This document shows positions 44,710 to 57,177 of a DNA stretch of 64,000 nt, one piece after another. The stretch spans positions 39,011 through 103,010 of the forward strand of contig NZ_KE384367.1 of NCBI RefSeq assembly GCF_000425405.1, in the 5' to 3' direction. A program made the translations under genes and the position numbers. Source of the DNA: Ferrimonas kyonanensis DSM 18153 (GTDB taxonomy: Bacteria > Pseudomonadota > Gammaproteobacteria > Enterobacterales > Shewanellaceae). Every line of letters begins with the position of its first letter. The stretch's first letter is position 1. The notes beneath the pieces are model-generated. The model saw only the letters and a program-made list of their open reading frames with translations. It did not search any database and had not been told where the DNA came from.

Positions 44710-46250
44710 AGTGCCGCCGGGTGCTGCTCGTGGCTGATCACCCGCGCCTGACGCTCGAGAATTCCCACCACATCCACGGCCTCCGCCCCCAAGCAGGTGG
44801 AGTGGTGCCGCTCCGCCTGCTGACGGAACTTGTCGATGTCGGATTTCTTCACCATAAAACCGGTGACCCGAACCAAATCGTTATCGCTGAGGTTGGCGGT
44901 AAACATTCTCAGCCCCAGCCCCAGCCCCCCTTGGACCAGCCGGGTCAACGCGGTCGGATTGTGGCGTATGGTGGGATCAATGGCGAAGATGTCACTGATG
45001 CCGCCATCGAAGTAACGATGCATGGGGGCGCACACCTTGATGTGATTAAGGGTATCGGGTTCACTGCCGACCGGAATCCGGGTGCCGGCGGTTTCATCGG
45101 CGTCGCAGGAGATCCCGGACTGAGAGTGGAACACCAGCTTGCCACCGGCGCAATAGATCATGTCGATGGCGTCCACCTGCAATTGATAGGCGGCCACGAT
45201 GCGCTGCCCAATCTCGGTGGCCTCGGCATCCAGCCCATAGCGCCCCGGCTTACCCTGATGATCCATCAATTGGTTCACCAGCTCCGCCAGGCCATAGATA
45301 CCAAACATGGCGGTAAAGCGATCCAGTCGCACCAGCCCCTCCCGACACAGGAAATGAGACTGGAAGAAGCTGGACTCCTCCACCAGGAAGCGGATTCTGT
45401 GGGCCATGGCTTCGGCCATCTGCTCGGCACACTCAGACACCACCCGGCCAAGATAATCCTCGACACTGCCGTCACAACGGGCAAAGGAGGCACGCAGATT
45501 CAACCGCATCAGGGTATGAGAGCCACCGCCGATGGGCAGGGAGTTATAGCAGCTCACCACGCCGTAGTCGCCGTCAAAGTCGGCACCGATAAGCGGATGA
45601 TTGGCGATATGAGGTTTATTGCAGGCGATGATGTTGTCCACCACCTGCTGCAGTAACTGCGGGGGCGTACACTGAGGGTCGTAGCGAAAGGTCAGGTTGG
45701 GCACCGACTGCTTGAGGCTGGCGTCCACCCTGAGGATCGCCCTGCCAACCCGGCTGTCTTCGGGGCCGATATTGGCATGCACAAAGGAGTCTGGCAGGGT
45801 GCGGTCGATCATTTGCCAGAACAGCCTCAGCTTCTTCTCCAGCTGGGCATCGGTCAGCGCTGAATCCACGAAAGGTTCCAACAACTGGTCCAACTGCCCC
45901 AGGAACACTGGGTAGCTGGTTACGGAAGGGACATGCTGATACAGGATAGTGAGAAAATTGATCGCTTCGTCCAGATCTTGCGGCGGCTCCAGCTCGAGAA
46001 ACTCGCAGCCCTGGCGCATCGCCATGGCGTAATCTGGCAGGACGTAGCGAGGCTTATAAGGGGCGCTACTTTCAAACATGTCGTGAAACACCCCCTGCTC
46101 CAGTCCTTGCTGAATCTCGGTCGAAAACGCCGGTTCCGGCAGCATCGACTCCGCCAGCTGAGACAGGGCCAATTGCTTCTGGCTCTGAGTCAGATTGGAT
46201 TGACGAATAAGGGAGAGGGCTTGCTGCTGAAACTGTTGGAGTTGCACCAT
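44700..46250 (-). CDS. yjjI: Glycyl-radical enzyme YjjI
   Basis: Protein of 516 residues from ATG 46250, the same length as E. coli YjjI, and similar throughout (CDMFEGSAPYKPRYVLPDYA-type block, HANIGP, FNLTF-like core, QSGISCDADETAG). The radical-glycine loop near the C terminus reads RVTGF, followed by ERQARVISHEQ. Reaction and substrate are unknown for the family; it is oxygen-sensitive, so active anaerobically. The N terminus is by comparison and the ribosome site is weak. A TTGAT half-site just upstream may be an FNR half-site. Confidence 0.9.
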   Translation of the reverse strand: MVQLQQFQQQALSLIRQSNLTQSQKQLALSQLAESMLPEPAFSTEIQQGLEQGVFHDMFESSAPYKPRYVLPDYAMAMRQGCEFLELEPPQDLDEAINFLTILYQHVPSVTSYPVFLGQLDQLLEPFVDSALTDAQLEKKLRLFWQMIDRTLPDSFVHANIGPEDSRVGRAILRVDASLKQSVPNLTFRYDPQCTPPQLLQQVVDNIIACNKPHIANHPLIGADFDGDYGVVSCYNSLPIGGGSHTLMRLNLRASFARCDGSVEDYLGRVVSECAEQMAEAMAHRIRFLVEESSFFQSHFLCREGLVRLDRFTAMFGIYGLAELVNQLMDHQGKPGRYGLDAEATEIGQRIVAAYQLQVDAIDMIYCAGGKLVFHSQSGISCDADETAGTRIPVGSEPDTLNHIKVCAPMHRYFDGGISDIFAIDPTIRHNPTALTRLVQGGLGLGLRMFTANLSDNDLVRVTGFMVKKSDIDKFRQQAERHHSTCLGAEAVDVVGILERQARVISHEQHPAALWK

Positions 46251-46388
46251 GATTGGACCACTGCTTGTTGATTGTGACAGGACGGAGCTTTCGGTAGCGC
46301 CCGGACGACGATACCGACGTTCTCTAGCAGCATTCTGACCCTTTTCCAATGCGATTAGGAGTGCTCAGCTCACAAAGCCGGCACCGGA

Positions 46389-48353
46389 CTAGGCCTTTCT
46401 TTTGCTGGCTGGCGAACGGCCCGAGGCCTTGCTTCGCCCACCCCGGCCCGCGGGAGATTTCCGCTTGCGTCGGGGTTTAGGCGCCTGCACGCCCCTTAAC
46501 GACTCCGGCACATGCTGGCGCGCCTGCTCGACCAGGCGCTGCAGCTGTTGCTGCAACGGGTTCATAAAGCCCTGATAGCTTTGCTGACGCTCCCGTATCG
46601 CTTCCAGAGCCGCTTCCCATTGCGCGGTCATGTCCGGCGTGGTTGCCAGTTCAGGTAAACTGTCGATCAGGGCGCGACCGGCATCGGAGGCCTGAATCTG
46701 CTTACCTTGACGGATCAGAAACCCGCGCCGGAACAACAGCTCAATAATGCCTGCCCGGGTGGCTTCGGTGCCCAGACCGTCGGTCTCCTTCAAGATGGCC
46801 TTGATGTTCGGGTCGGCCACATGGCGGGCGATGTTGGTCATGGCCGCCAGCAGGGTAGCATCGGTGAAGTGCTTGGGGGCTTGAGTATGCTTCTCCACCA
46901 CCTCCCCCTGCCGGCAGTGCAGCGACTGGCCCTGCTGCAGCACCGGCAACGATGCAGCCTGGTGTTCCTCTTCGGTCTCCGCCTTGCCTTCTTTGGCCGG
47001 AAACAGCGCCTTCCAGCCGGCCTCTACCGGCACCTTGGCGGCGGCCGTAAACACCCCGGTGCCGATGGTCACCGTTACCTTGGTCTCATCGAAGCGGTAA
47101 TCCGGGTAAAACTGCAGTAAGTACTGGCGAGCAATCTGCTGGTAGATCTTCGCTTCGTCGGCACTGATGCGGGCACTGCCCTGCTTGCCGGTGGGAATAA
47201 TGGCATGGTGGGCGTCGACCTTGGCATCGTTCCAGGCCCGGCTTTTGCGGTTCAAATCGGCGCCGGTCACCGCCTCCGCCAGTTCGTCACAGTGATGGGC
47301 CACCGCCTGACACACCTTGGGGGCATCCCGGTGTTGCTGTTTAGGCAGGTAGCGACTGTCGGACCTGGGGTAGGTAATGAGTTGATGGCGTTCATACAGG
47401 CTCTGACACAGATCCAGCACCTTTTGGGCGCTGAAGCCAAACCGTTTAGCGGCATCGATCTGCAGTGCCGACAGGTTATAGGGCAAAGGAGCCGACTGAG
47501 ATTTGCGCTTCTTCTCCGCCTTGGTTACCTCCGCTGGCTGATCGGTAATGCGTTCGGCCACATTCTCCGCCAGCCGCTTCGACAGCACCCGCCCCTCTTC
47601 ATCCTGGTAGGGCTGACAGGCCTCACTGGGTTGCCATTTGGCAGTGAACGGCTGTTGATCCTCGGTCACCAGCTGTGCCAACACGTCGTAAAAAGGGCGC
47701 GATACGAAATCGGCAATCGCCTTATCCCGGCGAACGACCAGCCCCAGCAGCGGCGTTTGCACCCGCCCCACCGACAACACGCCCTGATAGTGGACCTTTC
47801 GCCCCTGCAGGGTATAGGCCCGGGTCATGTTGATGCCGTACAGCCAATCGGCTCGCGACCTCGCCAGTGCCGATACCGACAGGGGCACAAACTCACGGTT
47901 TGGGCGCAGCTGCCCCAGCGCCCGGGTCACTGCCGCCGGCGTTAAATCGCTGACCAGCAGGCGCTGAACCTGCTGCTGCTTGGTGCGACTGACCTTGCAG
48001 TGATGAATCACCTCATCCACCAGCAACTGCCCTTCTCGGTCTGGATCACCGGCATGAATGAGCTGCTGCGCCTGCTTCATCAACTTACGCAACACCGTCA
48101 ATTGTTTTTGGCACCCCTTGCGGGTTTTCAGCTGCCACTCCTCCGGCACAATCGGCAGATGCTGCTCCTGCCAGGATTGCCAGTGAGCCTGGTAATCACC
48201 GGGCTCAGCTTGCTCAAGCAAGTGGCCAACGCACCAACTGACGCAATCGCCGTTACCCAGCTCGATGTAGCCTTCATGGTTTTTGTGCGGTTTGGGCAGC
48301 ACCGCCGCAATGGCGCGCCCCAGGCTGGGTTTTTCGGCAATGTAGAGTTTCAT
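46389..48353 (-). CDS. topB: DNA topoisomerase III
   Basis: Type IA topoisomerase of 654 residues. Toprim motifs MKLYIAEKPSLGRAIAAVLP and HAGDPDREGQLLVDE are intact, and the catalytic tyrosine lies in LITYPRSDSRYL. The C-terminal tail is rich in Lys, Arg and Ser (SPAGRGGRSKASGRS), suited to DNA binding; zinc fingers are absent. It resolves linked DNA during replication and repair. It is upstream of yjjI on the same strand with 138 bases between. Confidence 0.94.
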   Translation of the reverse strand: MKLYIAEKPSLGRAIAAVLPKPHKNHEGYIELGNGDCVSWCVGHLLEQAEPGDYQAHWQSWQEQHLPIVPEEWQLKTRKGCQKQLTVLRKLMKQAQQLIHAGDPDREGQLLVDEVIHHCKVSRTKQQQVQRLLVSDLTPAAVTRALGQLRPNREFVPLSVSALARSRADWLYGINMTRAYTLQGRKVHYQGVLSVGRVQTPLLGLVVRRDKAIADFVSRPFYDVLAQLVTEDQQPFTAKWQPSEACQPYQDEEGRVLSKRLAENVAERITDQPAEVTKAEKKRKSQSAPLPYNLSALQIDAAKRFGFSAQKVLDLCQSLYERHQLITYPRSDSRYLPKQQHRDAPKVCQAVAHHCDELAEAVTGADLNRKSRAWNDAKVDAHHAIIPTGKQGSARISADEAKIYQQIARQYLLQFYPDYRFDETKVTVTIGTGVFTAAAKVPVEAGWKALFPAKEGKAETEEEHQAASLPVLQQGQSLHCRQGEVVEKHTQAPKHFTDATLLAAMTNIARHVADPNIKAILKETDGLGTEATRAGIIELLFRRGFLIRQGKQIQASDAGRALIDSLPELATTPDMTAQWEAALEAIRERQQSYQGFMNPLQQQLQRLVEQARQHVPESLRGVQAPKPRRKRKSPAGRGGRSKASGRSPASKRKA

Positions 48354-48440
48354 GGCGACACAGTAACTGTATGAATGAACAGTAGTGTAGCGAAAAGCGT
48401 TAAAGAGTGCGACCTGGGGATTCTGTGGTCGTCACCGACA

Positions 48441-49211
48441 TTAAGAACGACGGCGAATTTTGAGGTTGGCGTCGAGGCACTTCTTACAGGACAACTTGGA
48501 TTTTATCCCCTTTTCAATAAAACGAGCCACCCGCTCTCTTAATTGACGATACTGGTTTACCGTCACTTTTTCATTCCAGTTAAAGGAGTTAACAATGGCC
48601 AAAATGCACTCCATCTCAACATTTTCTCGCTGGTGCTCGACCATTTTATCAATCAACTTACTTTCATAGGCGGTCGATTGACCATACAGCTGGAAATAGA
48701 TCATCTGCGCCAGTAACAGTGTCCGATCCGGCGTTTCATCCAGAGCCCCGTTGGCCTGAGCATCCAATGCCAACTCATGGATTAAATCAAAAAATCGATT
48801 GGCCCTGAGTTTAAAGCGATCCACTTTTTCGCAACTGGCGAGAGTCCAGACTTTGCTGTTTACCGACACCGATCTAAGTGACATGAAACTGCTGCTTTTA
48901 GCTACAGTTTCATAGGTGGTTAATATGGGGATAAGAAAGCGTTCCTGATAGCTAAGTGATTGTTCAGAATCTAAAATATCTGGGATATTATTGGACGTGG
49001 CGCTGCGAAGAAACAAACACAACAACACATCCTCCTTACTTTCAAAAAACTTGTATACCGAACCGGTAGAGCAGTTGGCCACCTTGGCAATATCTGAAAA
49101 TTTAAACGAAATAATTCCTTGCTCTTCAATTAGTTGCTCCGCAGCATCCAACAGAATCTGGCATTTAATTTCCGCTTGTTGCGTATTGGGACAGTGCATA
49201 GTCAATGGCAT
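48441..49211 (-). CDS. TetR-family regulator of the reductase module
   Basis: Protein of 256 residues: TetR helix-turn-helix (FKFSDIAKVANCSTGSVYKFFESKEDVL, about 35-62) and a ligand domain, with a basic tail containing CKKCLD. It is divergent from the flavoprotein reductase gene, 257 bases away. A perfect TGTTTTAAAACA palindrome (49292-49303) lies in that region. It is a likely local repressor or activator; ligand unknown. Start: ATG 49211 directly follows AGGA, ATG 49199 has poorer support; neither is firm. Confidence 0.83.
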   Translation of the reverse strand: MPLTMHCPNTQQAEIKCQILLDAAEQLIEEQGIISFKFSDIAKVANCSTGSVYKFFESKEDVLLCLFLRSATSNNIPDILDSEQSLSYQERFLIPILTTYETVAKSSSFMSLRSVSVNSKVWTLASCEKVDRFKLRANRFFDLIHELALDAQANGALDETPDRTLLLAQMIYFQLYGQSTAYESKLIDKMVEHQRENVEMECILAIVNSFNWNEKVTVNQYRQLRERVARFIEKGIKSKLSCKKCLDANLKIRRRS

Positions 49212-49291
49212 TCCTGATTCAGTAATTCAAAATTACCTTTTCTTCAGAAATTTTGTTGTGACTCCTATCAACAATCCCCGTGGCCCAATTT

Positions 49292-49303
49292 TGTTTTAAA
49301 ACA
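49292..49303. promoter_or_regulatory. Palindrome in the TetR/reductase divergent region
   Basis: Perfect 12-base palindrome TGTTTTAAAACA. A second inverted repeat, GTGAG-N6-CTCAC, lies at 49388-49403. Either may be the TetR site. Confidence 0.4.
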
Positions 49304-49468
49304 GACCTCCACAAAACCCACCATTACTCACAAAAGAGAAAAGTTCACGAGGGCAGTCATGAAACTCTTTTTCACCTCAGGCCTGGTGTGAGTCAGATCT
49401 CACTAACCCCATCACCGCATCGCCATAGTGACCGAAAAATTCGGATGACACACCGGGAGACCATCACA

Positions 49469-50992
49469 ATGACCACCGATACCACCAAGCGAACAACGCT
49501 GAAAGCCCTGGGGGCGTTGTCTCTGGGCGCCACTCTGCCTTTTACCAGCCAGGCAGCCAGCTGCAGCGCCACTGACTCCACTCGCTGGGATGCCAGCTAC
49601 GACATCATCTGCGTCGGCTCCGGCTTTACCGGACTGGCGGCCGCCATCGAAGCCAAGCGCCGCGGCGCCCAATCGGTATTGGTCATCGAGAAAATGCCAT
49701 ATTGCGGTGGCAACGGCGTGATCAATGCCGGCCAGGCCTGTTTCGCTAACACCCCGCTGCAAAACAAACTTGGCATCGAAGACTCCGCCGAGCTGATGGT
49801 CAGTGACCAGTTAAAAGCCGGCCGGGGCATCGCCGACCGGGCCCTGCTGGAGCACAATGCCAAGCTGGGTCCATATGCATTTCAGATGACTAAGGAATGC
49901 GGTGCCGTGTACCTGGACTTCTGCCAGCAACCAGGGGGCCACTCGGCACCACGAAGCCATCAGGTGGTTGAGCGTTCCGGAGCAGGCATTATTCGGCCCA
50001 TGCTGGCCGAATGTGAAAAACAGGGCATCATCGTTAAAACCCGAGTCAAATTTGACGACCTGGTTTTCAACGAGCAAGGCCGGGTCAGTGGCATTCGAGT
50101 GATGGAAGGCCACTATCATGACCGCCCAGGTCTTGGCAAACCCGCCACTCTGCAAGCCACCAAGGGGGTGGTCATGGCCACCGGCGGCTTCACTCAGAAC
50201 ATCCGTCTGCGCATGGCTCAGGATCCAACGCTCACCAAAGAGGTGGTCAGCACCAACGCTCCGGGTGCAACCGGTGATGGCCTGATCGCCATGATGAAAG
50301 GCGGCGCCAATCCGGTGCACCTGGCCCACATTCAATCCGGCCCCTGGGCATCACCGGATGAAGGCGGCTTCGGCTACGCCCCCAACTACGCCATTTTCAA
50401 CTTCCCCCACTCCATCGCCATCGATCTGATGACCGGTCGACGCTTCATGAGCGAACTGGCAGATCGGAAGACTCGCGCCGACGCCGAGTTGCAACGAAGG
50501 GATGCCGACGGCAATCCACTGCCGGCCATTTTGCTGACCGCCAAAGCCCACTCCAGCCAGAATCAACACAGCCTGGACAACGTACTGGAAGCCAAAGTGG
50601 GCTGGGAGTTTGACTCTTTGGAAGCCGTCGCCAGCCACTTCAACATTCCACTGGCACCTTTGAAAGCCCAGGTAAAGGAGTGGAACGACTACGTCACCCA
50701 AGGTAAGGATGCCCAGTTTGGCAAGCCGATGAACCTGACCCAGGGCAAGCAGATGTCCGCGCCCTACAGCGTCATCCGTCTGTGGCCCAAGGTGCATTAC
50801 TGCATGGGCGGTGTGCAGATCAACACCAAGGCCGAGGTGATTGCCGCGGCCACCGGCGCGCCGATCCCTGGCCTGTACGCCGGCGGCGAAGTGGCTGGTG
50901 GGGTTCACGGCGTCAGCCGCCTCGGCGGTTGCTCCATTCCCGATTGTCTGGCCATGGGCATCACCGCCGCCCGCTCCATTATGAAAGCATGA
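49469..50992 (+). CDS. Periplasmic flavoprotein enoate reductase (fumarate-reductase family)
   Basis: Protein of 507 residues with an export signal (KRTTLKALGALSLGATLPFTSQA). FAD-binding start GSGFTG at 50-55, then the capping domain. Active-site residues placed by alignment to Shewanella flavocytochrome c3: Arg333 in ELADRKTR (proton donor position), His443 in KVHYCMGG, Arg484 in HGVSRLGG. The Glu and Arg that complete the fumarate site in that enzyme are not visible in the corresponding GFGYAPNYAIF, so substrate is likely another unsaturated acid such as acrylate, methacrylate or urocanate. The heme domain is absent and is supplied by the next gene. GGGAGA 9 bases before ATG. Confidence 0.82.
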   Translation: MTTDTTKRTTLKALGALSLGATLPFTSQAASCSATDSTRWDASYDIICVGSGFTGLAAAIEAKRRGAQSVLVIEKMPYCGGNGVINAGQACFANTPLQNKLGIEDSAELMVSDQLKAGRGIADRALLEHNAKLGPYAFQMTKECGAVYLDFCQQPGGHSAPRSHQVVERSGAGIIRPMLAECEKQGIIVKTRVKFDDLVFNEQGRVSGIRVMEGHYHDRPGLGKPATLQATKGVVMATGGFTQNIRLRMAQDPTLTKEVVSTNAPGATGDGLIAMMKGGANPVHLAHIQSGPWASPDEGGFGYAPNYAIFNFPHSIAIDLMTGRRFMSELADRKTRADAELQRRDADGNPLPAILLTAKAHSSQNQHSLDNVLEAKVGWEFDSLEAVASHFNIPLAPLKAQVKEWNDYVTQGKDAQFGKPMNLTQGKQMSAPYSVIRLWPKVHYCMGGVQINTKAEVIAAATGAPIPGLYAGGEVAGGVHGVSRLGGCSIPDCLAMGITAARSIMKA

Positions 50993-51000
50993 GGTTATCC

Positions 51001-51375
51001 ATGAACCGTTCCATTGTTGTTACTGCCGCCCTGGCCCTATCGCTGGCCGCTGGCGTCCATGCCGGTACTCTGACCAAAGCCGGCGCCAAGCAGGGCCGAA
51101 GCTACCACTTGAGCAACTACGAGATGGGCTGCAAGACCTGCCATGACCGGGGAATGCGCAAGCCGCCCTCCGATAGCCTATGTCAGGACTGTCACGATCT
51201 GGAGGAGTTGATAAACCAAACTTCCAACCATGAAAAACCGTGGAAGAACCCGCACAACAATATGCATTACGGCAAAAAAGTCCCTTGCATCGAATGTCAC
51301 GGTGAACATCAACCTAAACAGCCGCTGTGCAGCAATTGTCACAACTTTGAGTTTAACAATTTCAAAGAAAATTAA
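51001..51375 (+). CDS. Small tetraheme cytochrome c (reductase partner)
   Basis: Periplasmic cytochrome of 124 residues with signal MNRSIVVTAALALSLAAGVHA and four CxxCH motifs (CKTCH, CQDCH, CIECH, CSNCH). It resembles the heme domain of flavocytochrome c3, here on a separate chain as in the methacrylate reductase of Geobacter. It follows the flavoprotein gene by eight bases with GAGG in between, so the two are one transcription unit. It should pass electrons from the quinol pool (through CymA-like proteins elsewhere) to the flavoprotein. Confidence 0.92.
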   Translation: MNRSIVVTAALALSLAAGVHAGTLTKAGAKQGRSYHLSNYEMGCKTCHDRGMRKPPSDSLCQDCHDLEELINQTSNHEKPWKNPHNNMHYGKKVPCIECHGEHQPKQPLCSNCHNFEFNNFKEN

Positions 51376-51396
51376 TCTCGATATATCTTTATTTAC

Positions 51397-51420
51397 GGCC
51401 CCATTAAGGGGCCTTTTTAT
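51397..51420 (+). terminator. Terminator after the tetraheme cytochrome gene
   Basis: Stem GGCCCC / GGGGCC with loop ATTAA and a T run. It sets the reductase pair apart from the cupin gene, so the cupin must have its own promoter or be read by read-through. Confidence 0.85.
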
Positions 51421-51423
51421 TTG

Positions 51424-51522
51424 TTGGCAAGAGGCATTTAATTTCGTTGCCAATTCTCATTTTTTCGTAGCATTTGAACTGGATCATGAAACTTTCTTCC
51501 TACAAAAACCACCCGTGATCCA
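51424..51522. repeat. Two inverted repeats before the cupin gene
   Basis: TTGGCAA-N16-TTGCCAA (51424-51453) and TGGATCA-N29-TGATCCA (51480-51522). They lie in an AT-rich intergenic stretch and may be regulatory. No promoter is clear. Confidence 0.35.
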
Positions 51523-51589
51523 TCCCGCATTTTAGCCGCCAGCAACATTGAATAATTAAATCGAACTAATTAATCAAACAAGGAAACAG

Positions 51590-52306
51590 ATGATGAAAAC
51601 AACACTCGCAATTGCAATCTCGACCCTGCTTATTGGCGCCCCGTTATCGGCGCTGGCCAAAGATCACAGTCCGGTTCCAACCCCACTGACCAGCTCCACC
51701 TATGCCCCTCAGTGGACCATTCCTGCCGAGTGTAAAGATCCTCTGGCCGAAAAATACATTGCCGGACTGCAGTCAGGCAAGTTCACCCTGGCCAACATTA
51801 AGGCCGACGACACCATCGCCAAAGATAAGCGTAACTGGCTAACCTTCGATGACAGCGGCAAAAACGTGGTTGAATGCAAAGACGGTGACATTAAAAACTC
51901 CCCCTCCAACTACTGCTGGAAAGAGCTGTCCGACTCGCCATCGGTAATGGGCATTGTCTCCATGGGTAAAACCGACCACGCGCCCCACTTCCATCCTCAA
52001 GGCGAATGTTACTACATTGCCGATGGCAAGACCGAAACGCTAGCTCAGAATCAGATGCAGACAATCGAAAAGGGACAGTACTTCTTCATTAATGATTACG
52101 CCATTCATAATATTCCAAATCTAAATGACGAAAAACTTACCATCTTTTATTGGTACCCCGGCGATGCCAACTGGGGTTCATTTAAATATTACTGGAAAAG
52201 TGACGTTGAGAATCATCAGCCGGCAGAGGCCGCTTTTGACAAAGTGGATGTGATTCGACAAGCCGCCTGGGGCTTTGGTCCATACGGTACTGAAAACCTC
52301 AAATAA
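51590..52306 (+). CDS. Periplasmic cupin, DMSP-lyase-like
   Basis: Protein of 238 residues with signal MMKTTLAIAISTLLIGAPLSALA. The cupin core has H133-x-H135-x3-E139-x-Y141 (in HFHPQGECYY) and, in motif 2, His173 in AIHNIPN; these fit a metal site. The same HxHxxxExY spacing is the signature of DMSP-lyase cupins (DddQ, DddL, DddY types), where the Tyr is catalytic. The Tyr expected three residues before the first His is His130 here. DddY is also periplasmic, though longer. Function is not proven; another metal-dependent lyase or isomerase is possible. AGGA precedes the ATG by 5-8 bases (two ATG in tandem). Confidence 0.6.
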   Translation: MMKTTLAIAISTLLIGAPLSALAKDHSPVPTPLTSSTYAPQWTIPAECKDPLAEKYIAGLQSGKFTLANIKADDTIAKDKRNWLTFDDSGKNVVECKDGDIKNSPSNYCWKELSDSPSVMGIVSMGKTDHAPHFHPQGECYYIADGKTETLAQNQMQTIEKGQYFFINDYAIHNIPNLNDEKLTIFYWYPGDANWGSFKYYWKSDVENHQPAEAAFDKVDVIRQAAWGFGPYGTENLK

Positions 52307-52328
52307 CTGAATTATTCTGGATAATAAA

Positions 52329-53462
52329 ATGACTGTATTTAAATTAACCCGGTCAGCCTTAATTATTTCCCTGGCTCTGGGCTCCCTGTCTGCCACCTCC
52401 GCTCAGGCCGAGGATGGCATCAGTGTCGGCGGCGCCGTTCGGGTCAACTATGGCCTCAAGATGTACAGCGACGCCTCCAAAGACAAAGGCGGCGACCTGA
52501 ACTTCGACATCCTGGCGCTGAAGTTTAATGGCCAGAAAGGCGACTGGGGCCTGGCGGCCGAATACCGCTTCAACGCCTCCACCAACTTCATCAAATACGG
52601 CTACGCCTACTACGACCTGGATCCGGAGTGGCAACTGCAATTTGGTGTGGCCAAGGTGCCGTTCGGCAACCCCGGCTTTATTTCAAACAGTTGGTGGTTT
52701 GGCCTGCCGTATTACCTGGGCTTCGAAGACGACTACGATGTGGGGGCCAAGGCGGTCTACCGCAGCGGTGACTGGCAGACCGACATCGCCTTCTTTAAGA
52801 ACGGCGAGTACAACTCCAGCAACAACAAGGCCTACACCCCAGATCTGTTCAGTGGCACGGTCAATGGCACCGATTACCATAACGAAGAGATCAACCAGAT
52901 CAACCTGCGTCAGGTGTACCACTACGCCCAGGGCGATCTACTCGTTAAGGCCGGTGGCTCGGCGGAGTTTGGCCAAATCTACAACAGCAAGACCACCGAT
53001 ACCGGTGATCGCTACGGCATCGCTCTGCACCTGGATGCCAGCTATCAGGGCTGGAACCTGCAGATGCAGGCGATGCAATATGAATTTGATGCCGAAAACC
53101 CTGCCGGTATGGATGGCAACAAAATCGGTGTCGCCGGTGCCGGCTGGCAGTGGGAAGTGGCCTCCAAGGGGCAGATCTACTCCTTCAATGTTGCCAAGAG
53201 CTTCACCACCAGCTTTGGCAGCATCAAAGTCTACAACGATTTTGGCCTGTTAACCCCGGATGTGGACGATGCCAGCTTCGATGACAGCTTCCAGAACGTC
53301 ACCGGCATGGCCATTGCTGCCGGTCCGCTCTACATCATGGCTGACTTTATTCAGGGTAAGAACATGACCTTCTCCACCGAGTTGGATGACCATGTCGGCC
53401 TGCCTGAAGCCGGTGACGGCTGGGATCAGCGAATCAACCTCAACTTTGGCTACTACTTCTAA
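52329..53462 (+). CDS. Outer-membrane porin
   Basis: Beta-barrel protein of 377 residues with signal ending TSAQA. Strands alternate with aromatic belts (WGLAAEYRFNAS, WQLQFGVAKVPFG) and the last residue is Phe in LNFGYYF, as expected for outer-membrane assembly. The family resembles OprO/OprP or carboxylate-type porins, but not closely enough to name a substrate. It starts 22 bases after the cupin stop, so it likely supplies the substrate for the cupin and reductase. No good ribosome site. Confidence 0.78.
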   Translation: MTVFKLTRSALIISLALGSLSATSAQAEDGISVGGAVRVNYGLKMYSDASKDKGGDLNFDILALKFNGQKGDWGLAAEYRFNASTNFIKYGYAYYDLDPEWQLQFGVAKVPFGNPGFISNSWWFGLPYYLGFEDDYDVGAKAVYRSGDWQTDIAFFKNGEYNSSNNKAYTPDLFSGTVNGTDYHNEEINQINLRQVYHYAQGDLLVKAGGSAEFGQIYNSKTTDTGDRYGIALHLDASYQGWNLQMQAMQYEFDAENPAGMDGNKIGVAGAGWQWEVASKGQIYSFNVAKSFTTSFGSIKVYNDFGLLTPDVDDASFDDSFQNVTGMAIAAGPLYIMADFIQGKNMTFSTELDDHVGLPEAGDGWDQRINLNFGYYF

Positions 53463-53536
53463 GCCAATCCGGGCCAGGGAAGCGGCGAACATCCATCACC
53501 GCCGCTGCGTATCAACCCACAGCCTTTCCTGACCTT

Positions 53537-53563
53537 GCCAGCTCCCCGTGAGCTGGCTTTTTT
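53537..53563 (+). terminator. Terminator of the cupin-porin unit
   Basis: Stem GCCAGCTC / GAGCTGGC with loop CCCGT, followed by TTTTTT. Confidence 0.9.
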
Positions 53564-53602
53564 CAGCCCTTACTCCGCCCCCTTCGCTGGCATTGCTTGC
53601 AC

Positions 53603-53633
53603 AAAAAAGCCAGCTGTCACTGACAACTGGCTT
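53603..53633 (-). terminator. Terminator of the chemotaxis receptor gene
   Basis: On the minus strand: AAGCCAGTTGTC / GACAGCTGGCTT with loop AGT and a run of T. One G-T pair in the stem. 46 bases past the stop. Confidence 0.85.
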
Positions 53634-53678
53634 AGTCAAAAACCGTCTAGCTATGTTTAAGACGGGTCCAACCTGCCG

Positions 53679-55316
53679 TCAGGACAGCCGGTACCGAGAC
53701 ACCAGTTGATGCAACTCATCGGCGTGGCTGAGGATCTGCTCTCCCACCGCCAGCGCCTGACTGGCGTTGGCTTCCACCGACTCTCCGACTTCCTTGACCC
53801 GCAACACGCTCTGGCTGATCTCCTCGCTGACCCGGCTCTGCTCCTCGGCCGCAGCCGCGATCTCCATATTCATCTGACTGATGTGACTCACTTCGCCGGT
53901 TACCTGGGTCAGCATGTCATCCACTTCCTGCGCCTGTCCGGCACAGACATCGGCATACTGCTGGCCATGACGGATAGAGGAAACCGCCTCTTCAGTCTCC
54001 TTCTGCAGACGCTCGATCATGGTCTGAATCTGCTGGGTCGACTCCTGGGTCCGGGATGCCAGAGACCGAACTTCATCGGCTACCACCGCAAATCCCCGTC
54101 CCTGCTCACCGGCCCGGGCGGCTTCGATGGCCGCGTTCAGAGCCAATAGGTTGGTCTGATCGGCGATGTTGCGAATCACATCGAGGATGGCGCCGATCTC
54201 CTGACTTTCGTGTTCCAACCGCTGCATCACCTCACCGGACTGGCTCACGGCCCCCTGCAGTTCGATGATGTTGCGTTTGGTCTCATCTAGGCCGGCCTTA
54301 CTTTGCCCCAGACGACCATTGGTCTCTGCCACATTGTCGGCTGCCACCTGAGCGCTGTTGCTGACCTGAGTCACCGACGCCACCATCTCGGTCATGGCAC
54401 TGGCCATCTGGTCGGTCTGGGTATTCTGCTCATGGATCTCCGCTCCGCTGGCGCTCATCTCCTGTTTCAGAGTCTCGGACTGAGCCCCCAGGGCATTGGA
54501 CACCTTGACCAGGTTCTGCACGATCACCACCAACTGTTGCTGCAGGTCACGGGCATCCTCGGCCAGTTGCCCCACCTCATCGCGTTGCTGCAGGGTCAGC
54601 GAAGCGGCAAAGTTGCCCGACGCCAGCTGCCGTAGAAACGCACCCAGCTCCCGGGTCGGCCTGACAACCGCCGCATTGCCCACTGCCATTCCCATTGGGA
54701 TGGCAATAATGATGGCCGCAATCAAGGCGATGATGCCCACCAATAGCTGCTCTTCGGCATGCTGTTGGTTCTCGTCAATTAACCGGGTCTGATTCGCCGT
54801 CATCTCGTTCACAATCTGTTCCAACAGCGTCGACGGGGTCCGATCGATGCCACGCAGTTGCTGATCCGTAGCCACCGCGTCAAACTGGTTGTCCTTCAGG
54901 AACTGGTGCCCCTGCCGGTATTGCCGGTTCAGGCTCTGCAGTTCGGTGAGAAACGCCTGCATTTTGGGTGCTTGAGCACTTTGAAGCTGCTGCAACAGCG
55001 CCAGAGTCTCCTGGGCATGCTCAAGCACCTTGGCTTCCGCCTTCTGATACTTGCCCCAGTACTTATCCTGGTCTGCCTGGGAACCGGTTCGAATCAGCAC
55101 GTTTTTCCACGCCTGTACCTGATTCTTAAACTCCACTTCAACCACCAGCACCTCTTCACGGGCACGGATGTCGTTGTGCAACATATCCTGGTAATAGCCC
55201 ACCACGGACAGCTGGCTGGACAGGGCAAAGCCGGCGCCCACCAGGATCAACACAATGCCGATGAGGTTGGCAGCCACTAATTTTGTTTTGATACTCAAGT
55301 TTTGCAGATAAGTCAT
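53679..55316 (-). CDS. Methyl-accepting chemotaxis protein
   Basis: Inner-membrane receptor of 545 residues: helix 1 (residues 9-33), a periplasmic four-helix ligand domain (about 34-190), helix 2 (about 192-215), HAMP, and a signalling domain with the hairpin tip [34 protein letters not shown]. No PAS or Cache motif is seen in the ligand domain, so the ligand is unknown. No CheW-binding pentapeptide for CheR is visible at the C terminus. It lies next to the respiratory block and could sense an electron acceptor; that is speculation. Confidence 0.9.
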
Positions 55317-55773
55317 TCAGACATCCCAAAGACGGTACCCGGACGCGGGCAAGAAGGGTCGTAGCGTACGCAGTCGCTGCTGGTGGCGACTTTCAACCCT
55401 CGAATAGTAACAAAGGGTAAATTAAGTATTTGTACTTTAATCCGTTAACCGAACTACATTTCTCTGTAGTAACAAAGAATAAGTACATTTTATAGTCGAC
55501 AAAGGCACCAGAAATCTGGCCAAAACCAGTGGAATCAGCTGATTTATTTGAGTTTTAGCCCGGCGGTCGCTTTTTGAGACCATCAACAGGTACGACCTTC
55601 ACAAAAAGTGATAAACATCAAATATCAGCCGTAATTAACTAAAACCGCATTTCAATGACTACTTAAACTAAGTCATTGACCCACAAGCGCTATGAGCTTA
55701 ATTTAAAGTTCCGGCCTGAAACGGATTGGTGCCGGTTACAATTTGCCCTACGAAGTAGATGGAGTTTGCTGAT
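55317..55773. other. Intergenic region between MCP and the acyltransferase
   Basis: 457 bases without a gene. It contains a direct repeat TAGTAACAAAG at 55405-55415 and 55467-55477 near the MCP promoter, and a perfect inverted repeat TCAATGACT-N10-AGTCATTGA at 55652-55679. Confidence 0.45.
55652..55679. promoter_or_regulatory. Operator candidate before the acyltransferase gene
   Basis: Nine-base perfect arms TCAATGACT and AGTCATTGA with a 10-base AT-rich spacer, 95 bases before ATG 55774. It matches no regulator I recognise. Confidence 0.4.
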
Positions 55774-57177
55774 ATGGCCCGCTTGTCATTGATCGATGCC
55801 TCGTTTGTCCTGTTCGAGTCTGCCCACACCCCGATGCACGTGGGGGGGCTGTTTATGCTCGAACCCGACGACCGCAATTTCGCGACCGAGCTGTTTCAGC
55901 ACTTGCTTCAATGCCATATCGCCAACCCGCCTTTTAACCGAATCCTGAAAGTCGGTGCCGGCGGCTGGCCTTACTGGAAAACCACCTCCAGCCTCAATAT
56001 TGAACAACACGTCTTTCTGCACCAGGCTCCACAGCAAGGAGACGAACTGGCACTGCAGCGCATGTTGGCTCAGCTGCACAGCCAGTTGATGGATCGGCGT
56101 AAACCGCTGTGGGAGTGCCACATTGTCGAGGGGATTAAAGGCGGCCAGGTGGCGCTTTACATCAAGATTCATCACGCCTGTGCCGATGGCATGAAGCTCA
56201 GTGCCATGGTAGACCAGTTGCTGTCCGAGGTGCCGGATACCAACATCAGCCCGGCCTTCTGGCAATTCAACAGCCCACGGCGAGCACGGCAGAACAACAC
56301 CCTGAAACAGGCCTACGACTTTGGCAGCGCCCTGTATCACCAAATTGTGGAACTGCCCAACCTGGCCAAGCTGACCGGCAAACTGTTTTCCCGGGCTTTC
56401 TACCCCACCATCAGTCGCATGCCAATCCCGTTCACCGCCGAAAAAACCTTTTTCAATCAGCGTCCGATCAACGACCGGGTCATCGCCCAAGGCAGCCTGC
56501 CCATCAGCTCCATCAAGCGGATCAGCAAATTCACCGGCGCCTCGGTCAATGAAGTGGTTCTGGCGGTGTGCGACGCGGCGCTGCATCAATATTTGATCGA
56601 CCACAAACGTCCCAGTGACAAGCCTCTGGTGGCCATTATGCCGGTCAATATGAAGGTGGATGCCAACGACAAGGACAACCACTTTTCTCCCGCCCTGATT
56701 GAGCTGGGTAAACGCCAGAATCAACCCACCGAACGACTGAAGGAGATCATGATCTCCAGCCGTCAGATCAAGCATGAGGCCAAAGCCTTTTCACCCACGG
56801 CATTCATGAACCTCTCGGTGGCCACCAATGCGCTGATGCTGCTGATTGGCAAGCTGAAGCTGGACAATCGACTGCCCACCATCAGCAACCTGGTGATCTC
56901 CAATGTGCCGGGCCCGCGGGAGACCCGTTACCTGTTCGGCGCGCCGATTCGCTCCATCACCCCCTACTCGGTGCTACTGCCGGATCAGAGCCTCAATATC
57001 ACCTTGTTCAGCTACGATCAGATGCTGCACGTGGGCATTACCGCCTGCGAGCGCGCTCTGGGCGACATTGAACTGCTGGTGCCCTACATCAGCAAAGCCC
57101 TGACGGCACTGGAACTGGATCTGCTGAGCGTGACTCTGGAGAAAGTGGAAGCCCAACTGGAGCAGCAGCGACACTGA
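55774..57177 (+). CDS. Wax-ester synthase/diacylglycerol acyltransferase
   Basis: Enzyme of 467 residues that joins fatty acyl-CoA to fatty alcohols or diacylglycerol, making storage wax esters or triacylglycerol. The catalytic HHxxxDG motif is HHACADG at 133-139; the second conserved block is NLVISNVPGPRE, near residue 380. ATG 55774 is chosen as GGAG lies 9 bases before it and the terminus MARLSLIDASF is standard; ATG 55759 has a weaker site. No lipid-storage partner gene is adjacent. Confidence 0.9.
   Translation: MARLSLIDASFVLFESAHTPMHVGGLFMLEPDDRNFATELFQHLLQCHIANPPFNRILKVGAGGWPYWKTTSSLNIEQHVFLHQAPQQGDELALQRMLAQLHSQLMDRRKPLWECHIVEGIKGGQVALYIKIHHACADGMKLSAMVDQLLSEVPDTNISPAFWQFNSPRRARQNNTLKQAYDFGSALYHQIVELPNLAKLTGKLFSRAFYPTISRMPIPFTAEKTFFNQRPINDRVIAQGSLPISSIKRISKFTGASVNEVVLAVCDAALHQYLIDHKRPSDKPLVAIMPVNMKVDANDKDNHFSPALIELGKRQNQPTERLKEIMISSRQIKHEAKAFSPTAFMNLSVATNALMLLIGKLKLDNRLPTISNLVISNVPGPRETRYLFGAPIRSITPYSVLLPDQSLNITLFSYDQMLHVGITACERALGDIELLVPYISKALTALELDLLSVTLEKVEAQLEQQRH

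Follow-up and report, generated by a model that had tools for sequence, protein, structure and literature searches.

Here we describe a group of five genes in a 64,000-nucleotide stretch (the window) of the genome of Ferrimonas kyonanensis DSM 18153. The genes encode a TetR-family regulator, a flavoprotein reductase, a tetraheme cytochrome c, a cupin and a porin-like protein. The parts and their linkage, an acrylate-type pocket in the reductase, DddK-type active-site residues in the cupin and an element shared by the two transcripts are all present in the sequence. With moderate confidence we interpret the group as a respiratory module. Its cupin would be a DddK-like lyase of a new, periplasmic kind that yields acrylate from dimethylsulfoniopropionate (DMSP) or a close analogue, and the acrylate would be respired by the products of the neighboring genes. 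The grouping is not chance. An initial annotation had placed the five genes together, and each was recovered there (Table 1).

The reductase pocket

The window reductase scores 496 bits against TIGR01813 (flavocytochrome c-type enoate reductase), above the curated cut-off of 285 bits. R333, H443 and R484 align with R411, H520 and R560 of UrdA. The roles kept relative to UrdA are those of the carboxylate-binding Arg (R484) and His (H443) and of the proton-donor Arg (R333). Gly291 occupies the position of the His that binds the second (C1) carboxylate of fumarate in fumarate reductase. The Gly in place of this His, with the Arg/His/Arg set kept, points to a monocarboxylate enoate reductase. No heme or flavin mononucleotide (FMN) domain was reported by the Pfam scan of the 507-aa chain.

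The pocket was compared in an alignment of 85 reductase sequences including 27 DddY-linked fragments, 7 of which start within the first pocket block. One of the 27 (L130) is from this genome and was also included full-length (own_Y). In the DddY-linked fragments, wherever these are readable, the stretches HIQSGPWASPDEGGFGY, NFPHS, ADRKTR, VHYC and GVSRLG are identical to those of the window reductase. In the adjacent positions the DddY-linked sequences mostly have VHYCQ for VHYCM of the window reductase, and GVSRLGS for GVSRLGG. Reductases of a second type of cupin module (C1-type) are nearly identical to the window reductase in these stretches, mostly with F for the first H; a close relative of the C1-type reductase in F. 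aestuarii (L073) carries GDRKER. The pocket stretches of a third type (C3-type) and of the remaining reductases are clearly unlike those of the window. In a 30-row tree of reductase C-terminal parts, the window-type and C1-type sequences (98/89) are sister to the DddY-linked ones (93/89), and all of these group (98/96) apart from nine C3-type rows.

The pocket supports a predicted acrylate-type rather than fumarate-type activity. This agrees with the initial proposal, in which an exported enoate reductase acts with a tetraheme cytochrome encoded separately. We regard it as extremely improbable that this is simply a fumarate or urocanate reductase cluster whose neighbors are unrelated to it, although TIGR01813 is the same subfamily and the best PDB matches of the window reductase are fumarate and urocanate reductases. 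A fumarate reductase of the Fcc3 type was rejected on Gly291 and on the lack of a reported heme family in the chain, and a urocanate reductase on the pocket and the domains. Moreover, two heme-fused FccA-like proteins and one ApbE-adjacent reductase encoded in the same genome could fill the fumarate and urocanate roles.

The cupin and its relationship to DddK

The initial description of the cupin as DMSP-lyase-like is borne out, in that, among solved structures, the DMSP lyase DddK is its nearest relative both in sequence and in fold. DddK is the best PDB match by phmmer and by profile, and the top fold match to the predicted cupin model (Foldseek ranks 1-6, VIA-align ranks 1-5). The DddK ligands H56, H58, E62 and H96 align with H133, H135, E139 and H173 of the cupin, and catalytic Y64 and carboxylate-binding Y122 with Y141 and Y200. 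The roles of these DddK residues are taken from PMC10686828. The metal site H-x-H-x3-E ... H of the DddK/Q/W/L/U type of cupin DMSP lyases is thus present. Of the DddK aromatic residues, W110 corresponds to W188; F117 corresponds to W195, a position at which family members have W or F, and F108 to F186, where they have F, M, L or I. The cage residues Y21 and W26 of DddK lie beyond the sequence alignments. H133, H135, E139, H173, Y141, Y200 and W188 are invariant in 22 aligned members of the cupin family. By alignment with DddK, H133/H135/E139/H173 would bind the metal, Y141 would be the base, Y200 would hold the carboxylate, and W188 and W195 would supply the aromatic contacts. Cleavage of DMSP to dimethyl sulfide and acrylate is a candidate activity.

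Only the general Cupin_2 family (PF07883; 30 bits, cut-off 27.2) reaches its curated cut-off for the window cupin. Among 12 Cupin_2 places in the genome, both sought motifs occur only in the three module cupins. PF16867 was rejected as a label because scores fall below the cut-off: the window cupin has no match, the C1 paralog of this genome reaches 21.2 bits (cut-off 27), and 3 of the 22 family members match, with E down to 3e-4. DddY was rejected as well; the cupin has no match to the DddY NCBIfam models, and in a profile comparison this 238-aa protein aligns with DddY in no part but the signal peptide. The DddY of this genome has 423 aa, in keeping with the earlier remark that DddY lyases are of different length.

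A DddY module on the same contig

A DddY module (C11:16000-26000) is situated on the same contig, roughly 65-70 kb from the cupin module. Its genes encode a porin, DddY, a cytochrome, a reductase, a LysR-type regulator and AcuI. This DddY matches DddY in the PDB at E 1.5e-74 and scores 708 bits against NF053571 (cut-off 650), but is below the other DddY model (NF043049, 291 bits vs 800). AcuI is barely above its cut-off (443 vs 440). In a sample of 146 genomes of the family there are 62 DddY matches in 61 genomes. Cytochrome and reductase adjoin DddY in 27 of 30 loci examined; the other three (L144, L145, L158) have an outer-membrane protein on that side, where the fetched 1.5 kb ends. Since DddY modules show cytochrome and reductase beside DddY, the 238-aa cupin, judged by gene order, occupies the slot of DddY. 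In another genome of the family (G114, C10:144818-147340) there are two tandem DddY matches, with 66% and 49% identity to the query.

The slot bears on a second alternative, in which the cupin would be a non-lyase metal-binding isomerase, oxygenase or sensor that merely travels with an enoate respiration operon. Such a role would fit a protein for which only general Cupin_2 reaches a curated cut-off, and quercetinase ranks first in the PDB for the C3-type relative. However, the DddK-type metal, base and carboxylate positions are invariant, the sister module has DddY in the same slot, and an oxygenase would seem implausible within an anaerobic respiration operon. We consider this alternative distinctly unlikely.

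Conservation across genomes

The cupin was found in 60 of the 146 genomes of the family sample. In a phylum sample searched at E 1e-15 it occurs in 3 of 398 genomes, all of this family, and a separate contig search found it in Granulosicoccaceae and Falsirhodobacter. Linkage was evaluated in a sample of 57 loci, three of which (L087, L098, L129) could not be judged, as they end too near the cupin. Of the 54 evaluable loci, 51 have both a reductase and a cytochrome at most 6.5 kb from the cupin. Had cupin and reductase failed to occur together in other genomes, the initial proposal would have fallen; instead they are linked almost throughout. Of the 56 loci with a full cupin open reading frame (ORF), 47 have a porin homolog and 51 have a TetR homolog.

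The evaluable loci without linked reductase and cytochrome are L112 (Granulosicoccaceae), L115 (F. senticii, with the TetR gene only) and L114 (Falsirhodobacter sp. alg1), where by eye the cupin adjoins an alginate-lyase-like ORF. The neighbors of the cupins in L112 and L114, read by eye, gave no consistent pathway as a clue to the substrate. A contig labelled Marinobacter nauticus (NZ_JAHVJZ010000007.1) is almost the same in gene order and identities as one labelled Ferrimonas balearica (the pair L103 and L108), and the label or assembly may be wrong.

Paralogous modules and a PF00221 parallel

Three cupin paralogs are present in the genome, each clustered with a reductase, a cytochrome, a porin and a TetR gene. 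Eight reductases of the subfamily are above the cut-off. Two are fused to four hemes (L058, L059), one is beside ApbE and five have a separate cytochrome. Three of these five belong to the cupin modules, and the other two have in that position DddY or an exported protein of PF00221 (aromatic amino acid lyase; the C1b module). A porin of one family is present in all five clusters. The paralogs of the window porin-like protein beside the other modules have identities of 73% (C1b), 69% (C3), 61% (DddY) and 46% (C1), and two more are encoded elsewhere. The three cupin clades of the genome pair with two reductase pocket types. Incongruence between cupin and reductase trees is not claimed; the cupin tree consists of three clades without an outgroup.

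The PF00221 protein is below the hutH cut-off (276 vs 539). It was found in 54 of the 146 genomes, and a same-strand reductase lies within 1.5 kb of the gene in 29 of 30 loci examined. In the exception (L189) a second PF00221 gene sits between the PF00221 gene and the reductase. The clade carries GTVGEAD or a similar sequence wherever the pattern matched; it was not found in L211. We take this to be the position of the Ala-Ser-Gly that forms the methylidene-imidazolone (MIO) group, and because GTVGEAD replaces this triad, ammonia-lyase activity of the clade is not to be assumed.

Additional genes accompany some modules. In one genome (G025; L211, C1:3510000-3522000) a second module with LysR-like, reductase, cytochrome, PF00221 homolog and porin genes follows in tandem after the porin of the cupin module. 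By eye, chemoreceptor-like and WS/DGAT-like genes follow this second module, and such genes directly follow the window module. The C1-type module has an exported DUF3299 protein between cupin and porin (L054:3158-3622), and DUF3299 homologs are found in most C1-type loci of Ferrimonas and Shewanella. Many C3-type modules of Shewanella have an extra outer-membrane-like protein between porin and cupin (for example L065:12487-13560); in the one tested, the match to DcaP stays below threshold (25.6 bits vs 27).

The substrate of the module

The DMSP-to-propionate pathway of the initial annotation is only partly sustained. The acrylate-type reductase, the DddK-like cupin and the conserved linkage speak for it, and the presence of a true DddY module makes DMSP itself the doubtful part. 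Several points weigh against our interpretation. DMSP as the substrate is uncertain because DddY already covers it in this genome, and the module may serve another acrylate-yielding compound. In the 146 genomes, cupin and DddY occur together in 43, the cupin alone in 17 and DddY alone in 18 (Fisher p 1e-9; outside the own genus 32/48, p 3e-7; both values ignore relatedness). Because the two co-occur, the cupin adds to DddY and does not replace it; this favors a substrate or condition other than that of DddY. Finally, calling all five modules lyase-fed presupposes the function of the cupin, and the independent part of that pattern is 2/2.

A third alternative we consider somewhat unlikely. The cupin would be a beta-eliminating lyase whose substrate, for example a betaine or some other beta-substituted acid, is not a close relative of DMSP, and its product would be acrylate or a substituted acrylate. 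The co-occurrence with DddY would suit this, as would the fact that the three cupin clades of a single genome go with two pocket types of reductase, and the coupling of a reductase with a PF00221 lyase-fold protein in another module. Against it, the pocket stretches of the window reductase match the DddY-linked ones, and the aromatic W110 and F117 of DddK align with W188 and W195 of the cupin.

A lyase for DMSP or a close analogue, our preferred reading, leaves room for dimethylsulfoxonium propionate (DMSOP). According to PMC10686828, DddK, DddQ and DddU favor DMSOP over DMSP in efficiency and DddY favors DMSP. A DddK-like cupin beside DddY could therefore be the DMSOP member of the pair and, by analogy with DddK, is possibly DMSOP-preferring. 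Elsewhere, the genome encodes a protein that scores above the dmsA/ynfE cut-off, so that both halves of DMSOP could serve as electron acceptors; this last step is a guess.

Regulation

A scan for terminators gave 13 terminator-like sites against 10.8 expected in shuffles, and for this reason the scan is no proof by itself. In both orthologous modules (G025, G007) the cytochrome-cupin gap also has, at its start, a hairpin with T after it. The annotated splitting of reductase and cupin transcripts by a terminator thus stands, yet the two transcripts share an element. The pattern TCATGAAA-N23-GTGA has 2 matches within the window (0.01 expected) and exactly 2 in the 4.93-Mb genome, both at the two promoters of the module; a control pattern has 0. 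With a looser gap of 14-34 bases, a scan of 77 sources gave matches only in the window, L062 (G025), L063 (G007, a genome of the same genus) and L073 (F. aestuarii); L063 and L073 represent one locus. No modules of the window's own type were found besides these. All four carry the element 5' of both transcripts with the same 23-base gap, as counted from the scan output. Because both carry a fixed-spacing element found only there in the genome, the reductase/cytochrome and cupin/porin transcripts are probably one regulon. The right half of the element resembles the consensus of a CRP site. The TetR protein was ruled out as the acrylate regulator AcuR (NF051457, 13.7 bits, cut-off 247).

Gene organization

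The intergenic gaps are 257 bp (TetR-reductase), 8 bp (reductase-cytochrome), 214 bp (cytochrome-cupin) and 22 bp (cupin-porin). For the reductase a GTG start at 49280 is possible upstream of the ATG at 49469, which is preceded by GGGAG and followed by the twin-arginine-like KRTTLK. Reductase, cytochrome, cupin and porin-like protein are predicted to be exported from their signal-like N-termini, read by eye, consistent with the earlier view that all products except the regulator leave the cytoplasm. For the porin-like protein, searches of Pfam (E 0.1) and of the PDB (E 10) gave no match, and the label porin is therefore one that we infer. An Rfam scan of 46000-56000 at gathering thresholds gave zero matches.

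Table 1. Features of the module and the exported PF00221 homolog of the C1b module
Feature	Position	Strand	Remarks
TetR-family regulator	48441..49211	-	PF00440 E 2.3e-10; divergent from reductase
Regulatory element 1	49357..49391	+	TCATGAAA-N23-GTGA, upstream of reductase
Flavoprotein enoate reductase	49469..50992	+	TIGR01813 496 bits; acrylate-type pocket, twin-arginine-like signal
Exported tetraheme cytochrome c (predicted)	51001..51375	+	124 aa; four CXXCH; PF14537 E 5.2e-11
Rho-independent terminator 3' of cytochrome	51397..51413	+	GGCCCC-loop-GGGGCC + TTTTT
Regulatory element 2	51484..51518	+	pattern and spacing as element 1; upstream of cupin
Exported cupin, candidate acrylate-releasing lyase	51590..52306	+	238 aa; Sec-type N-terminus; PF07883
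Porin-like outer-membrane protein	52329..53462	+	signal-like N-terminus; C-terminal Phe
Exported PF00221 homolog, C1b module	L057:6208-7911 (C1:238210-239910)	-	567 aa; E 2.8e-123

The module is flanked by genes for a methyl-accepting chemotaxis protein (53679-55316, minus strand) and a type IA-family DNA topoisomerase (46389-48353, minus strand). By eye, look-alikes of both flank the module in G007 (L063), where it is inverted relative to both. The flanking chemoreceptor could sense the substrate of the module.

A model and its relationship to known systems

Catalysis, substrate, electron flow, porin selectivity and the identity of the element-binding protein are what we infer in the following model. 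The porin would admit DMSP or a closely similar small onium carboxylate, for instance DMSOP, to the periplasm. There the metal-dependent cupin, with its metal and tyrosine, would remove the leaving group from the beta-carbon to give acrylate. Quinol electrons would pass through NapC/NirT-type cytochromes, for which the genome has three candidates (PF03264), to the tetraheme cytochrome and on to the flavin adenine dinucleotide (FAD) reductase, which would turn acrylate into propionate. Both transcripts would be switched together through the shared element by the TetR protein, which would probably act with a second factor. Acrylate would need no entry to the cytoplasm; there, as acrylyl-CoA, it is probably toxic (PMC4029986).

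Linkage of dddY with fccA and fccB in Shewanella (the sp. MR4 region, with acuI) was printed in 2012 (PMC3338564). The DddY modules of Shewanella and Ferrimonas resemble the window module in gene types, reductase clade and porin family and, for those examined here, in gene order. They differ in having DddY for the cupin and LysR for TetR, and AcuI is absent from the listed neighborhood of the window module. DddK, from Pelagibacter, has chains of 136-150 aa that align to residues 63-209 of the window cupin model. Unlike DddK, the window cupin has a predicted signal peptide, extra N- and C-terminal parts and a gene beside a respiratory reductase.

Mrd/Mcc of Geobacter sulfurreducens AM-1 likewise combines an exported flavoprotein reductase with a separate multiheme cytochrome and reduces acrylate and methacrylate at comparable rates (PMC4427408). 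At the His position of fumarate reductase, Mrd has Trp and the window reductase Gly. PMC4427408 suggests that such reductases deal with lyase-derived acrylate; the words cupin and porin are absent from it. UrdA (PMC7921117) shares the fold family and the aligned Arg/His and proton-donor Arg, but has an FMN domain, and Tyr373 where the window reductase has Gly291.

Literature searches, in a collection without most subscription journals, found no paper combining "DMSP lyase" and "acrylate reductase" and none combining flavocytochrome, tetraheme cytochrome, cupin and porin. In looser searches no title or abstract start among the matches listed described the cupin family. Within the searches made, the cupin family, its position in the DddY slot, the shared element and the PF00221 parallel are new.

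Implications

If the model is correct, it would add a family of periplasmic DMSP/DMSOP-type lyases that lies outside the known Ddd set. DMSOP would yield dimethyl sulfoxide and acrylate, two electron acceptors per molecule. The model would also suggest a reason for the flavoprotein reductases in DddY modules.

We tentatively propose, as a plausible generalization, that Ferrimonas and Shewanella follow a strategy of making their own electron acceptors. Exported eliminating enzymes of at least three kinds would each be served by a matched reductase and cytochrome and mostly by a porin. The kinds would be DddY, the DddK-like cupins (three clades) and the exported PF00221 protein with its MIO triad replaced, each converting a saturated osmolyte or acid to an enoate within the periplasm. 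Substrates outside those known would then be used by the C3-type and PF00221 modules, and for orphan reductases of Shewanella and Ferrimonas the substrate could be guessed from the adjoining lyase. Paralogous modules with matched reductases in one genome make the specificities of lyase and reductase testable pairwise. If the model holds, the turnover of marine organosulfur compounds would be tied to anaerobic respiration, beyond their use as carbon alone.

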